From assembly GCA_008477525.1 (NCBI GenBank), contig SPDT01000006.1:2011501-2075500 (forward strand): a DNA stretch of 64,000 bases. Direction: 5' to 3'. The notes under the pieces were generated by a model. The model saw only the letters and a program-made list of their open reading frames with translations, searched no databases and was not told the DNA's origin. Positions 53,564-60,988 of this stretch are shown here, piece after piece. The stretch is from Hypomyces perniciosus (lineage: Eukaryota > Ascomycota > Sordariomycetes > Hypocreales > Hypocreaceae). Position numbers and translations under genes: made by a program. Numbering within the stretch: position 1 is the first letter of the stretch; each line of letters begins with the position of its first letter.

Positions 53564-55292
53564 ATGTCTGCTGTTCCTGGTCCAGTTTACGGCCTCGAGG
53601 TCCCGCCTGGCGAGATCTTGATCCCGGCCGCCATGGAGTTTCCTGCCTCTGTAAGTTTTTTCCTTGCTGCCATTGAGCAAAACAAACTGCATACGCATGT
53701 CTCGGCATGCCTTTTCTTGCTGCCAGACTGCTCCCAGCGATGCGCATTTGCTTTCGACTGGCGCTAACACTGGACGTCGCAGTTCCGCATCACCATGGCT
53801 GCCCTGGATCCTACTGAGGAGCCCGAGGCCGATGAGAATGGCAACATCCCCGCTGTCCCCCGCTCAACATTGCGGCTGGTGAAGCGCGCCTTCCCTGGCC
53901 TTGAGGATGGTGAGGATGACGAGGTTGATGAGGAGTACATGAGGGCCCTGCTCGGCGGCTCTGATGATGAGGATGACGATGATGAAGAGGAGTCCAACGG
54001 TGGGCCTAGCGACCCTGCCAAGGTTAAGAAGCAGAAGCAGGCTGCCGCCATCAAGAAGCTCCTGGAGGCTGCTGTGGAAGGCGACTCTGATGATGAGGAG
54101 ATGGAGGACGCCGAGGCCAGCAAGTCCAAGGGCAAGAATAAGGACAAGAAGGGTAAGGGTAAGGCTGTTGAGGAGGAGGAGTCTGAAGAGGATGAGGAGT
54201 CCGAGGACGATGATGACAGCGAGAGCGGTGATCTCGAGAACTTCGTTCTCTGCACGCTCGACACCGAGAAGGTGAGAAGCGCCACAGCCTGTGAAATGGT
54301 CTAACAGTGCAGTTTGCTAACACCCCCCCCAGCACTACCAGCAGCCTCTTGACATCACTGTCAATCACGGCGAAAAGGTCTTCTTCGTCGTCACCGGAAC
54401 CCACACTGTCTACCTCACCGGCAACTACATCATGGATGATGAGCATGATCATGACCACGACGAGGACGATGAGGACGAGGATGACTATGACTTCTCCCCT
54501 GATGAGCTAGACTATGCCATGGGTGAGGACGCCAGTGATGATGAGAGCGACGATCTCGATGACGTCGATAACCCCCGTGTTACTGAGGTCGACTCCGACG
54601 AGGAGGTCCCCAAGCTGGTTGCAACCGAGAGCAAGAAGGGCAAGAACAAGCGCACCGCCGAGGAGGTTGAGGGCCTTGATGACTTGATTGCCAAGTCTGC
54701 TGAGCCTAAGCTCTCCAAGAAGCAGCAGAAGAAGCTCAAGGACAACAAGGGTGAGCCTGTTGCCGCTGAAGAGGCCAAGAAGGACGAGAAGACGGACGAG
54801 AAGAAGGATGAGAAGAAGGTCCAGTTCGCCAAGAACCTGGAGCAGGGCCCCACTGGCTCTGCTGCCAAGGCCAAGCAGGCTGGCAAGCAGTCTGCCGCTG
54901 TCAAGGTCGTCCAGGGCGTGACCATCGATGACCGCACCATCGGCAAGGGACGCACCGTCAAGAGTGGCGACACTGTTGGCGTCCGGTACATTGGCAAGCT
55001 GCAGAACGGACAGCAGTTTGATGGTAAGCAGGCTCCTTTCTAATCAAATCATCAACGAATACGTAGCTAACGTGGGTGGAACACAGCCAACAAGAAGGGC
55101 AAGCCTTTCTCCTTCAAGGCCGGCAAGGGCCAGGTCATCAAGGGCTGGGACATTGGTGTCGTTGGCATGGCCATCGGAGGAGAGCGACGACTGGTCATCC
55201 CTGCTCACCTTGCCTACGGTTCCAAGAGCCTGCCCGGCATTCCCGCCAACAGCCAACTGACCTTCGACATCAAGCTACTTGAGATCAAATGA
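53564..55292 (+). CDS. fpr4: Nucleolar FKBP-type peptidyl-prolyl isomerase (Fpr3/Fpr4-like)
   Basis: Four exons (53564-53650, 53783-54271, 54333-55023, 55087-55292) encode 490 residues. The N-terminal part is a nucleoplasmin-like domain ([17 protein letters not shown], then [13 protein letters not shown], later [21 protein letters not shown] and [18 protein letters not shown]). It is interrupted and followed by long acidic tracts of Asp/Glu and basic Lys-rich stretches. The C-terminal 110 residues are the FKBP fold: [25 protein letters not shown], then [31 protein letters not shown] and [11 protein letters not shown]. The isomerase core is complete. Yeast Fpr3 and Fpr4 are nucleolar histone chaperones and prolyl isomerases acting on histone H3 tails and rDNA silencing. 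Fpr4 is used as the symbol, but fungi of this group usually have only one such gene. All introns are GT-AG. Confidence 0.95.
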
Positions 55293-56149: not shown

Positions 56150-58898
56150 ATGCGGTCTCGTCTGCTCAGCAACAAGCATAGTTGTCCCACGCTGGATCCC
56201 ATCTCCAGCAAGCAAAACCTTTCTCTCAGCGCTTCATTTCCGCTACTTACAAATGGTGAGGAGACTGCTGTCGTCTCAGAAGTTCCAAAGCTTCATCATG
56301 CAGGGTCAAGAGTCTGGTCTGAGATTCGAGGCGCCATCAAAGCCATTGGGAGAAATAGCCGCAGCAGTAAGTTACCTCTTCACACGTCCTCCTAGGTCAA
56401 GTCTGGCTAACATATTGCAGGTTCGCAGGGCTCTACCGTCCTCGAATAGTGTCCAGGCGAAGCGCCACCAGTCCCCAACAAAGGCAAGGCATCGACAGCC
56501 GCTACGCAGGTCGGGGATCCGTTTACTCCTACACGCAAGTCAAAGGGAATCACGCCAAGAGAACTTGTCAGAAAACTACGTCTTGATACATTGGGCCTGG
56601 CACCGACCAACACGGTGATTCTTCGTAGCTCTCCTTCGAAACGCAGGGGCTCGCTCCAAGTTCTTGCCAGCGACACCGACTCCGATTCATCCAGCGACCC
56701 AGACAGTTCATGTTCTTGGTCGTCTGCATATAGCAGCAGGCTGACAAGCCCAGAGGAAAATTCCACAAGAAAGACTTCTGTTGACTCTCGTTTCTCAGGG
56801 TCGCCTTCAGTCAAAAACAGTCCAAAGCGAAGGCATAGCCGCAGGAACCGATGGACCAGATCCAGCCCTGAGGGGGCCGCTCTAGACACGATTGAAGAAT
56901 CTGGCGTTAACAACGTCCAGCCAACCATTCTTACCATTGAACGGGCGGCGGCAGCCAAGATATATCTCGAAACTCACTTCAACGATCTCCTCAATAAACC
57001 GCAATCCTGGTCTGTTCGGCGCCAGTACCTCGAGTCCCAACTCTATTACAGCCCTCACCTAAGCATTGAACAGAAAGACACAATTCGAAGATCGTTTTAC
57101 CATCAAGAGAACTGCCATCTGAGGGAAATACGGGTCTTGAAGTCTCAAGGCGTAGTCAAATCCAGGGAACAGGATGTGAATCCCTTTCTAGCGAGGTATG
57201 AGCCCATCAAAGTCCTGGGCAAAGGGAGTTTCGGTGTTGTGCGATTGGTCCGTGAGAGGTTCAGTTCGGAAAACCCTTACGGAAATCAAGTCTATGCCAT
57301 GAAGGTAATTCGAAAGTCGGACATGCTTCGAAGCAGTCAGGAAGGCCATCTTCGTGCTGAGCGAGATTTTCTCGTGGCTTCCGAAGGAGCCAACTGGTAC
57401 GTGATGATTCAAGCATGCTTCTCCTTGGTTTTTTCATCTTCCTTTTCCCCCCAGGGCTGACACTGCTCTTCAGGGTGGTACCCTTGGTCGCTAGTTTTCA
57501 AGACCTTACGAGCCTATATCTTGTCATGGAATACATGCCTGGAGGCGACTTTCTGGGGCTTCTGATTCGTGAAAATATCCTACACGAAAGCGTGGCCCGT
57601 TTCTACATTGCTGAGATGATTCTTGCTGTTGAGGAGGCGCACCGTCTGGGATTTATCCACAGGGATATCAAGCCAGACAATTTTCTCATCTCCAGCTCCG
57701 GACATCTCAAGATTTCAGATTTCGGGCTTGCCTTTGATGGCCATTGGTCCCACGATGCGTTGTACTATAATTATCATCGGTACTCACTTCTTCGAAAGCT
57801 AGACATCAATGTTGATGGAGACCAGAAAGACCAGGAGAGCAACAAGACTGTACAAGGACGCGCTGATATATCCAAGGCTCTAACAGCAGGTTTGGGGCGG
57901 CATGAAAAGCAAAACATGGATCAGGATCTCGCCAGTCTTCTTGGGTGGAGGAACAGATACGGCAATCGCACAAGGGCTAATTCTGTTGTCGGCACCAGTC
58001 AGTACATGGCTCCAGAGGTGATCCAATCCCCAAACTACTACGACGGCAGATGCGATTGGTAGAGCATTGGCATCATTCTGTACGAGTGCCTATATGGACA
58101 CACGCCTTTCCTTAACGAGGGAGGCCGGAGCCCAACGAAAGACAAGATAAAAGTGAGTGGTGATTCGCACGGTGGTTTGCCGGTCAACAGCATACACTTA
58201 CACTCGAGCAGAAATTCAAGGAGATCTTCCATTTTCCTCCAAGACCTCCCGTCAGTGACAGGTGCAAAGATCTGATTTACCGCTTGATCCAGGACAAGGA
58301 GGTTCGACTATGCTCTAGACGATACCAGATGCTTGACCGCGGCCAGCGATCGGTGGATGTTTTTGGGCGGTATGTGTTACCCGACGATGCCGAGGACATC
58401 AAAGCCCATCGATGGTTCAAGAGCATCCCCTGGGACCGCCTGCAAACGATCACGCCGCCATTCATCCCCCACATCAACAGCGCAGAAGACACACACTATT
58501 TTGATGAGTCGGAGCCCGTTGATGACCTGTCCGAGTCGTCGGCTGAAATAGCTGAGCTCACCCCCGATGATGTTCGGACACTGTTGCGAGACTTCAGTCC
58601 AAACCTACAAAACGCGGCGATACACCTAATCTCTACACCATATGACTCGGGAGCTCTTCGAACCAGAGACCTTGAGGTTGACACATGGATAGGGTTTTCA
58701 GCAGAAGAGAGGGAATTGTTAAAGAGGTTTGTCAGGGAATACGGACGGAAAATGCCCAAGAGACCAAGGGATATCATTCTGCGAGACGAGAATATCAAGG
58801 ATGTGGCAATGGAGGTGAGAAAGCAGACAGCATTCATGGGCTACACGTGGAGGAGGATGAGGCCAGGGGGTTATGTGATGCCCAAGTGGGTGGACTGA
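56150..58898 (+). CDS. puk1: AGC/NDR-like protein kinase with in-frame TAG codons (PUK1-like, candidate A-to-I edited)
   Basis: Four exons (56150-56366, 56421-57396, 57474-58152, 58212-58898) give 853 codons including the final stop. The kinase domain starts near residue 332: VLGKGSFGVVRLV, YAMKVIRKSD, then LVMEYMPGGDF, HRDIKPDN, ISDFGLAF, GTSQYMAPEVI and CDW-stop-SIGIILYECLYGHTPF. The expected Asp-Trp-Trp-Ser has its second Trp as TAG (codon 594, 58060-58062), while homology continues without a break through the AGC tail to a hydrophobic motif FMGYTW. Another in-frame TAG is codon 82 (56447-56449). An alternative acceptor (exon from 56457) would skip it. No ATG lies between this TAG and the kinase core, so the gene must start upstream. 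PUK1 of Fusarium graminearum is a perithecium-specific kinase whose UAG codons at the matching site are edited to UGG. Orthology and editing here are inferred. A nonsense mutation is the alternative. Confidence 0.85.
58050..58067 (+). other. Possible RNA hairpin holding the TAG codon
   Basis: ATGC (58050-58053) can pair with GCAT (58064-58067), and a G-U pair (58049/58068) could extend it. The 10-nt loop GATTGGTAGA contains the A of the TAG (58061), preceded by U. Known fungal A-to-I sites favour a U at -1 and hairpin loops, so the setting fits. The stem is short and its formation in the mRNA is unproven. Confidence 0.45.
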
Positions 58899-59211: not shown

Positions 59212-60731
59212 TCAACTCTCTTTGGGAAGCTGACGATTCGTAATGGGATCTGTTGACGCAAAGGATCTAGCAGTCCGGATCTCCCACTCAAACTCCTTGA
59301 GGGCGCGGATCTCGGATGAGAAAAAGAGCAAGGCAAGCAGGCCATCGATGGCGCCAGCGGTAAGGCCCAAGCTGGCAAGGAGCATAAGAAGGAAAGCGAC
59401 GAAGTTGCGGGGACTGAACCAGACGGCAACAAGGCAGGCAACCCAGATGAAGACGGCGGCATAGAAGTGGACGGCACGCCAATATCGCTGGCTGACTTCA
59501 CGAGCCATATACGGGTGGATAGTAGCGAGGATTTCATCATAGACAGCCGGGGAGAGGTTCTCATTGTTGTCGTTGGTGGTATCTGAGAGGAGTTGGGCGT
59601 CGTGTTCGGGAGAAGAGGGGTTGAGTGATGTGGTGTGTAGTTTGAGGGTGGCGAAGACGGCGAAGTGATCGGAGAGGGAGACGTGAAGTTCTGGATGGCG
59701 TTGGGTCATGGCTACGGAAGCGGATTTGACGACCCAGCCAAGGCGTGTAGATAACGATGACGATGATGATGGTCCAGATTCGGAGCTGCCGGTAGAGGCA
59801 AAGATGTAGTCGAGACGCTTGCCTTTGGGATCGGGAGAGTTGGGATCAACAGGGCAAGGGTCGCCAGCACGGAGACGGTTCTGGGCGTTCTTTGTCCAGC
59901 GCCAGGTGTTGTAGACGCCGTCGCTGGTGGCGCCGTTGACGCGGAGGTTGAACTCGGCGGTGGGGACGGACCGGCCCCGGGTCAGCTCGGCCGGGTCGGA
60001 GGCGGGGCCGAGTGAGCTGTCCGAGTGGAGGACACGCCAGACGTCGCGGAGCGGAGTGCGGCCGGTGATGATGCGGTGGGCGAGGGAGAGGGGGAGCATG
60101 TTGTAGTCACCGAGGGCAACGACGAGATGGCCTCGGGAGGAGGCGCCGCGGAGCAGCTTGGAGAGTTCCCAGGCCTGGGCGGCGCGGTGGCAGAGGTAGG
60201 AGTCGTTGGGGCCGGATTCATAGGGGGCGTGAGTCTTTCACATGAGTGAGTGAGTGAGCGAGTGAGTGAGTGTAAGCTGGCTGGACTTACATGGGTGTTG
60301 AAGACGTCAATGACGTCCTTCTCGCCGGACCCGAATCTGACGCTCGCACAGGCAACGCCTTTGCCAACGAACCAGTCACCCCTCCAAAACGCCGTGGGCC
60401 TGCCATTGAGAGGATACTGAAACATGGAGCTCGACTCGAGCGGCCAGCGGCTCAGGATGGCGAGACCACCGCCAAATACGCCGCTGTGGTAGAACTTGCC
60501 GTATGGTAAGAGGCTGGCAGTGGCATCGCGGATGGCGCGGTAGTCGTCCTTGGTCCAGCACTCCTGGAGGCAGACGATGTCGGGAGACGGAGTCATGAGG
60601 GCGAGTTGGCGGCCGATTTCAGCGAGGCGGGGGGTGCGGAGGGCGGAGATGTGGAGGAGGCCCCAGCAGTTGAGTGTGAGGAGGTTGATTTCAGTGACAT
60701 TGTGGCTGTTGTTGGAGTTGGTGGCGTCCAT
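59212..60731 (-). CDS. isc1: Inositol phosphosphingolipid phospholipase C (Isc1, neutral sphingomyelinase type)
   Basis: Two exons (60731-60291, 60234-59212) encode 487 residues. Isc1 hydrolyses inositol phosphosphingolipids to ceramide and inositol phosphates in the ER and mitochondria and links sphingolipids to stress tolerance. The endonuclease/exonuclease/phosphatase fold is complete: LLTLNCWGLLHIS at about 16-28, the metal-binding glutamate in CLQECW, GGGLAILSRWPL, FNTHTHAPYESGPNDSY across the splice, then GDYNMLP and the catalytic LSDHFAVFATLK. Two membrane segments near the C-terminus (FYAAVFIWVACLVAVWF and FVAFLLMLLASLGLTAG) anchor it, as in yeast Isc1. The 56-nt intron carries a GAGT microsatellite. 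The gene's 5' leader is a long 14-bp repeat array. Confidence 0.95.
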
Positions 60732-60754
60732 GGCTGCTGCGAGAAGTTGAAGAT

Positions 60755-60885
60755 GAGTTGTATGAGTTGAGTTGTATGAGTTGAGTTGTATGAGTTGAGT
60801 TGTATGAGTTGAGTTGTATGAGTTGAGTTGTATGAGTTGAGTTGTATGAGTTGAGTTGTATGAGTTGAGTTGAGTTGAGTTGAGG
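60755..60885. repeat. 14-bp tandem repeat array in the isc1 promoter/leader
   Basis: About eight or nine near-perfect copies of AGTTGTATGAGTTG stand directly upstream of the isc1 ATG, ending in pure GAGTT units. On the mRNA strand it reads CAACTCATACAACT. It is probably in the 5' leader and would contribute no ATG to the isc1 mRNA strand. Boundaries are good to a few bases. Confidence 0.85.
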
Positions 60886-60988
60886 TGATGATAGTTGGGC
60901 GGCTGCCTACCCTACACACGAGGTGGAGATTTTAGGCCCGAATCTTCGGAGGTATGTGCAGTTGATATAAAGAAGTACACAGTGTAAT

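Follow-up and report, generated by a model that had tools for sequence, protein, structure and literature searches.

The kinase gene PUK1 (FGRRES_01058) of Fusarium graminearum has UAG-UAG in place of a Trp-Trp pair in kinase subdomain IX, and in perithecia both codons are converted to UGG by adenosine-to-inosine (A-to-I) mRNA editing (PMC4817773). As described in the same paper, the Neurospora crassa ortholog STK-21 (NCU03242) has UAG-UGG at this pair and is edited, Fusarium verticillioides FVEG_01191 has UGG-UAG, edited in perithecia and unedited in hyphae, and Magnaporthe oryzae and Claviceps paspali have a genomic G at both places. Alleles of puk1 that cannot be edited fail to complement (PMC7306014). 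Here we describe a kinase gene at positions 56150-58898 of a 64,000-nucleotide stretch of the Hypomyces perniciosus genome (contig SPDT01000006.1, positions 2,011,501 to 2,075,500 of the forward strand; hereafter the window, whose numbering we use), which very probably is a PUK1/STK-21 ortholog with in-frame stops that are read as Trp after A-to-I editing of the mRNA.

Where F. graminearum PUK1 has TAG-TAG, the gene in the window has TGG-TAG plus a distant TAG in exon 2. STK-21 also has an edited UAG in the pair, but in the first codon (TAG-TGG). The TGG-TAG of FVEG_01191 is identical, although that species belongs to a different family and editing of the site in H. perniciosus is a prediction. 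Since this one-stop form has already been published, with editing in F. verticillioides (PMC4817773), it is not new, and the mechanism is known; this kinase is an additional case, to which we add the second stop, a stop in a RID-like gene, the signature of Ame1 and a pattern across the order. We found no survey of PUK1 stops across the Hypocreales in the open-access papers searched. The published positions A1831/A1836 could not be matched to the numbering of this gene and were dropped.

Structure and identity of the kinase gene

The four-exon model of the kinase has canonical splice sites and runs in frame from an ATG to a TGA at 58896-58898, giving 852 residues with two internal TAG codons, at residues 82 (site 1) and 594 (site 2). 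The earlier note on this DNA had described the frame around the second of these as unbroken, which agrees with the model. Its features, all on the + strand, are as follows:

56150-56366, +: exon 1 of the PUK1/STK-21-like kinase, from the ATG, placed by frame, splice sites and homolog coverage
56367-56420, +: intron 1, 54 bases, GTAAGT..CAG, branch site CTAAC
56421-57396, +: exon 2, kinase N-lobe, holding the upstream TAG
56447-56449, +: site 1, the second in-frame TAG, a Trp column in Trichoderma, Tolypocladium, Stylonectria, Metarhizium and others
57397-57473, +: intron 2, 77 bases, GTACGT..CAG, branch site CTGAC
57474-58152, +: exon 3, with the catalytic loop, the activation segment, subdomain IX and the TAG reported in the earlier note
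58018-58062, +: 45-base in-frame GTG..TAG stretch, intron-like to annotation programs, which takes the conserved Asp with it
58049-58074, +: predicted RNA hairpin with a 6-base loop at 58059-58064 (GUAGAG) containing A58061
58060-58062, +: site 2, TAG instead of the second DWWS Trp, with A58061 as the base predicted to be edited
58153-58211, +: intron 3, 59 bases, GTGAGT..CAG, without CTRAY
58212-58898, +: exon 4, the remainder of the kinase domain and the C-terminal tail, 3' of both stops, open and conserved

Read directly, the sequence at 58054-58068 is GATTGGTAGAGCATT, including the in-frame TGG-TAG at 58057-58062, and the four-exon translation around residue 594 is ...YYDGRCDW*SIGIILYECLYGHTPF, where the asterisk is the stop at 58060-58062. 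In a PDB search, yeast CBK1 and human STK38 both have CDWWS here, and the stop falls on the second Trp of that motif. Among the homologs described below that have a residue in the two DWW columns (the row of the window excluded), the first column is Trp in 57/57 and the second in 54/54. We therefore confirm that a TAG replaces the second Trp of the DWWS motif in subdomain IX.

Hypocreales supply the best homologs, which carry annotations as AGC/NDR or cbk1-like kinases; for the ten highest-ranking ones, query coverage is 94-100%. We built a tree of 86 of the 153 homologs plus the window by a quick search, with support from the Shimodaira-Hasegawa-like approximate likelihood ratio test (SH-aLRT) only; in it the window falls into an 11-row group (97% SH-aLRT) with Cladobotryum mycophilum, one further relative and eight Trichoderma rows. 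C. mycophilum, whose lineage belongs to the Hypocreaceae, is the nearest named ortholog, at 76% identity over 537 columns. A search of the 44 Mb genome with a Trichoderma ortholog matched this locus at 375, 355 and 339 bits, whereas the next-best kinase scored 123 bits, and no intact duplicate of the kinase was seen. Homolog coverage, tree position and the gap in bit score identify the gene, an NDR-like AGC kinase, as the ortholog of PUK1/STK-21, as had been proposed.

Identity to three Trichoderma models is 44-49% in the N-terminus and 83-84% in the N part of the kinase, and past the stop the kinase part is still 71-74% identical and the C-terminal tail (residues 701-852) 66-72%. This bears on whether the gene is a plain pseudogene, a lost kinase in which both TAG codons arose by ordinary nonsense mutation. 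Finding two stops together would fit such a loss, and genes for sex can be lost in fungi that seldom mate. However, the sequence 3' of the stop is conserved, the remaining frame and the splice sites are intact, and both stops are TAG at Trp columns, even though TGG to TAG accounts for only 15 of 313 single-base nonsense changes (11% with transitions weighted fourfold). The stop also recurs at the same codon pair in the models of relatives, and we consider a pseudogene unlikely.

A G-to-A change of the kind made by repeat-induced point mutation (RIP), or an error of assembly, could in principle have created the TAG in this strain. The TpG to TpA context fits RIP, and the composite index is +0.65 in the 201 bases around site 1 (56350-56550, which are partly intron 1). 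Over the whole gene, on the other hand, the composite index (-0.76) is below that of the window (-0.54), and it is -0.65 at 57900-58200; no other locus in the genome matches strongly, and the nearest named ortholog ends at the same codon. An origin of the TAG by RIP or misassembly is accordingly extremely unlikely. The same-place stop in relatives, the normal gene-wide RIP indices and the single-copy locus thus speak against all three alternatives that the earlier note had listed, namely nonsense mutation, RIP and assembly error. Elsewhere in the window, positions 2001-2500 are the only 500-base segment that passes RIP-like thresholds (product index 1.46, substrate index 0.71).

Codons of the Trp-Trp pair in homologs

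We compared 153 distinct kinase homologs, which are the best 120 of 2510 and the best 120 of 2393 matches clustered at 90%. For a conserved edited stop in Fusarium CHE1, the faults of annotation were a false end and a false small intron (PMC11169179, Zou et al. 2024). In our set, the WW is intact in 45 of the 153 models, 6 end at CDW or CGW (C. mycophilum, P0033, among them), 10 end at CD and 5 end at LLG, just before another Trp column. The region is skipped in others, with the model resuming exactly at the second Trp in 10 and exactly at the following Ser in 24, while the remaining 53 have other gaps across the site from which the stop codon is not assignable, some of which may be other annotation faults. 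Because introns end in AG, resumption at the Trp points to a TAG in the first codon, and resumption at the Ser to one in the second codon, whatever the first. Counting all models that end early, 21 of 24 stop directly before a Trp column (P0108 and P0130, which the aligner misplaced, were judged by their last residues), and the exceptions are P0129, P0141 and P0136.

The five models ending at LLG (P0124-P0128) are from Ustilaginoidea, Ophiocordyceps australis (twice), Epichloe and Conoideocrella. The column after LLG is Trp in 134 of the 142 rows with a residue, and these ends are probably yet another position of the stop.

The WW is intact in only 2 of the 82 named Hypocreales models (Clonostachys and Geosmithia) and not intact in the other 80, compared with 26 intact of 26 in Leotiomycetes, 11 of 32 in other named Sordariomycetes and 6 of 13 among models without a taxon name. 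According to PMC11087585, editing has not been found in Leotiomycetes, and Ame1 from one species of that class, Sclerotinia sclerotiorum, fails to bind Tad3. On the tree, the distribution of WW and its absence needs 8 changes, 5 of them forced by starred branches, and stops in the first and in the second codon both occur within Trichoderma. The region is skipped in the model of N. crassa, a known edited gene, and in that of F. culmorum, a close relative of F. graminearum. The model from Gaeumannomyces, a relative of M. oryzae, keeps the WW. The earlier note had raised the case of TGG in close relatives with the TAG confined to this strain; that is not what we see, as the model of C. mycophilum, the closest named one, ends at exactly this codon.

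Ribosomal readthrough of the UAG, which would yield some full-length kinase without editing, would likewise keep the downstream frame under selection. It leaves unexplained why early ends fall at Trp codons (the 21 of 24 models above), why the stop shifts between two neighboring Trp codons and why it is absent from all 26 Leotiomycetes models. The known fungal readthrough context, UGA CUA, is also absent here, and readthrough seems to us hardly credible as an explanation. Editing, by contrast, is the likeliest explanation, as the earlier note had it, being supported by the same codon pair edited in three species, by the stop that recurs in relatives and by the Trp columns.

The exon 2 stop, RNA context and other loci

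The TAG at 56447-56449 lies in the context SSQGSTVLE*CPGEAPP, after the acceptor of intron 1 (the CAG ending at 56420), which has the branch site CTAAC 10 bases upstream. This region is poorly conserved: of 154 rows, 82 are gapped at the column, and Trp is found in 20 of the 71 homologs with a residue. In Trichoderma the column is Trp in 9 of 9 models with a residue, with 5 more gapped, and Trp also occurs in Tolypocladium (STVLEWSPG) and Stylonectria (STVLEWSPN). Carriers of Trp beyond Trichoderma include some Ophiocordycipitaceae and Clavicipitaceae. The Trp is therefore shared by several families, whereas 12 Claviceps have Ala, several relatives of Cordyceps have Tyr or Cys, and the Fusarium models with a residue have something other than Trp. 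The Cladobotryum model lacks exactly the segment spanning the site 1 codon, and we think that a false intron may have been placed there to dodge the same stop.

Splicing is the alternative that touches both sites: a 45-base mini-intron at 58018-58062 would remove site 2, and site 1 would be lost if the acceptor ending at 56456 were used. Annotation programs put introns here in many orthologs, and in F. graminearum BUD14 editing and alternative splicing both act on one premature stop (PMC11156358). At site 2, however, the mini-intron would delete the Asp of subdomain IX, the 45 bases contain no CTRAY (a weak point, as intron 3 has none either), and the matching third predicted intron of F. graminearum PUK1 is false according to cDNA (PMC4817773). 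An in-frame skip of 58018-58062 thus exists on paper, at the cost of the conserved Asp. At site 1 the acceptor ending at 56420 has its branch site, but skipping could still occur, and splicing is a live alternative there because use of the acceptor ending at 56456 would leave the stop out and keep the frame. We infer that site 1 is probably edited rather than spliced out, and removal of both stops by splicing appears very unlikely. The earlier claim that only the second DWW codon needs an edit holds for the Trp-Trp pair, where A58061 is the sole target, while a full-length kinase would probably take two edits, at A56448 and A58061.

Known edited sites prefer U at -1 and A or G at +1 and +3 (PMC9600606). 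Both GUAGAGC (site 2) and AUAGUGU (site 1) have preferred bases at these three positions, with U at -1 and G at +1 and +3 of A58061. Of 1000 structures sampled for the 61-base fold (-16.3 kcal/mol), 996 put A58061 in a hairpin loop, and of the four fold sizes, three do so (+/-30, +/-100 and +/-200). About 62% of known edited adenosines lie in a stable hairpin loop; the feature is not obligatory.

A second gene with a stop is a candidate RID cytosine methyltransferase at C3:1350235-1351107 (-), whose Drechmeria coniospora homolog is named rid1. Its frame is open except for one TAG (AVDKSPEV*ETYKANF), which on inspection lies mid-exon. Among the 120 homologs listed, 107 have Trp in the column of this TAG and 1 has Cys, while 12 are gapped there. 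The gapped rows are all 12 Trichoderma models in the list, with Trp in Escovopsis and Cladobotryum, so a stop at this place may be common in Trichoderma, going by these gene models. The context CUAGGAG has the preferred base at all six flanking positions when set against PMC9600606, and its A is placed in a hairpin loop by the two smaller folds (+/-30, +/-60) and in a stem by the two larger ones (+/-100, +/-200). Homologs of rid in F. graminearum and F. verticillioides need editing of a premature stop (PMC7306014), and the candidate here likewise has a premature TAG, at a Trp column. The published Fusarium site may be a different codon, because the listed Fusarium models, among which F. graminearum is not named, show Trp at this column.

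The genome also holds candidates for the editing machinery. One of three DUF726 genes, at C23:755629-756700 (+), encodes a Met-Val pair at -31/-30 relative to the GxS serine. The same pair occurs in Ame1, where it lies at 500-501 relative to S531, is essential for editing and gave Tad3 binding (PMC11087585). In the remaining two genes the residues are AS and SL by straight count, or SN and LD when the DNP flank is matched up by eye. At C5:2617418-2617858 is a Tad2-like gene, so named for its HAE and PCVMC motifs and not by a family model. None of the 5 PF00383 matches was clearly Tad3, and no further search for it was made.

Relatives of SPO22, DCP1 and RhoGAP are edited in F. graminearum. Family searches for them here gave no in-frame TAG, with 1 match and 2 TAA for SPO22, 1 match and no stop for DCP1, and 11 matches and 1 TGA for RhoGAP; no TAG was reported in the searches for DUF726 (6 matches), PF00383 (5) and HMG-box (10). 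A TAG by itself inside an exon-wise match is not evidence, for TCP1, used as a control, has one in 5 of its 16 matches. One of the five ends a clear GT..TAG intron, and the other four lie within the first 15 codons of the match, where they probably are intron ends too.

Two further sets of observations concern mating type and neighboring genes. At C5:1818474-1818730 (-) there is an HMG box that resembles MAT1-2-1. A search of the genome for a MAT alpha-box gave no match, which is uninformative as the control was equally silent; the strain may be of a single mating type. Next to the kinase lies the following gene:

54321-55289, +: NPL/FKBP prolyl isomerase, the upstream neighbor, fused to the same kinase in the models of two other fungi

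The fusion models are from Stachybotrys chartarum and Fusarium longipes, the only two seen, and since they fuse both genes, the window shares the order of isomerase and kinase with at least these two fungi. The downstream neighbor at 59215-60911 (-) belongs to the endonuclease/exonuclease/phosphatase family (PF03372) and is perhaps the sphingolipid phospholipase ISC1.

Counter-evidence, mechanism and meaning

Several observations weigh against editing, or against editing at one of the two sites. The stops in relatives are read from gene models and not from the DNA of these species. In Claviceps, 12 of 12 models skip the region, against the genomic G reported for C. paspali (PMC4817773), a species that is itself outside the homolog list. 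The bases at -2 and +4 are disfavored at both kinase sites. The +/-60 fold pairs A58061 within a stem, and since 38 of 83 UA sites in the coding sequence are also in hairpin loops, the loop discriminates weakly. A56448 is in a stem in its 61-base fold, with 1 of 1000 samples placing it in a hairpin loop and most placing it in a stem, in an interior loop or unpaired outside helices; in the larger folds it is in a stem, a multiloop and a multiloop, so that a hairpin loop is found in none of four sizes. The in-frame acceptor ending at 56456 could bypass site 1. Finally, the RID stop is not shared by the nearest relative, as the RID model of Cladobotryum (P0155) has Trp at that column.

That editing takes place in this species, and at which stage, we infer. 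The UAG at 58060-58062, and probably also that at 56447-56449, would be turned into Trp codons by A-to-I editing of the mRNA, and the editor would be the deaminase Tad2-Tad3 together with Ame1, its partner in the sexual stage. Hyphae could then form only a truncated, inactive protein, and fruiting bodies would make a full-length kinase with a role in sexual reproduction.

The editing of stop codons in fungi could be the repair of accidents or a switch that is kept. Liu et al. 2016 compared three species at this kinase and named two more with TGG-TGG (PMC4817773). The gene models seen here suggest a stop that is nearly universal in Hypocreales, mobile between Trp codons and absent from the Leotiomycetes models among them. 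We tentatively entertain a further step, as a possibility that we would not yet favor: that in Sordariomycetes the stop wanders among Trp codons (the first of DWW, the second of DWW, LLGW and here VLEW) and is almost never lost in Hypocreales, with selection keeping the gene off unless editing is active, so that the two distant stops in H. perniciosus would be a double lock and not tolerated accidents. Most of the hypocrealean models of this kinase that we saw are wrong or shortened at subdomain IX. The Hypocreaceae, the family of Trichoderma, are added as a place to look for editing, and the question of repair or switch becomes testable on public DNA.
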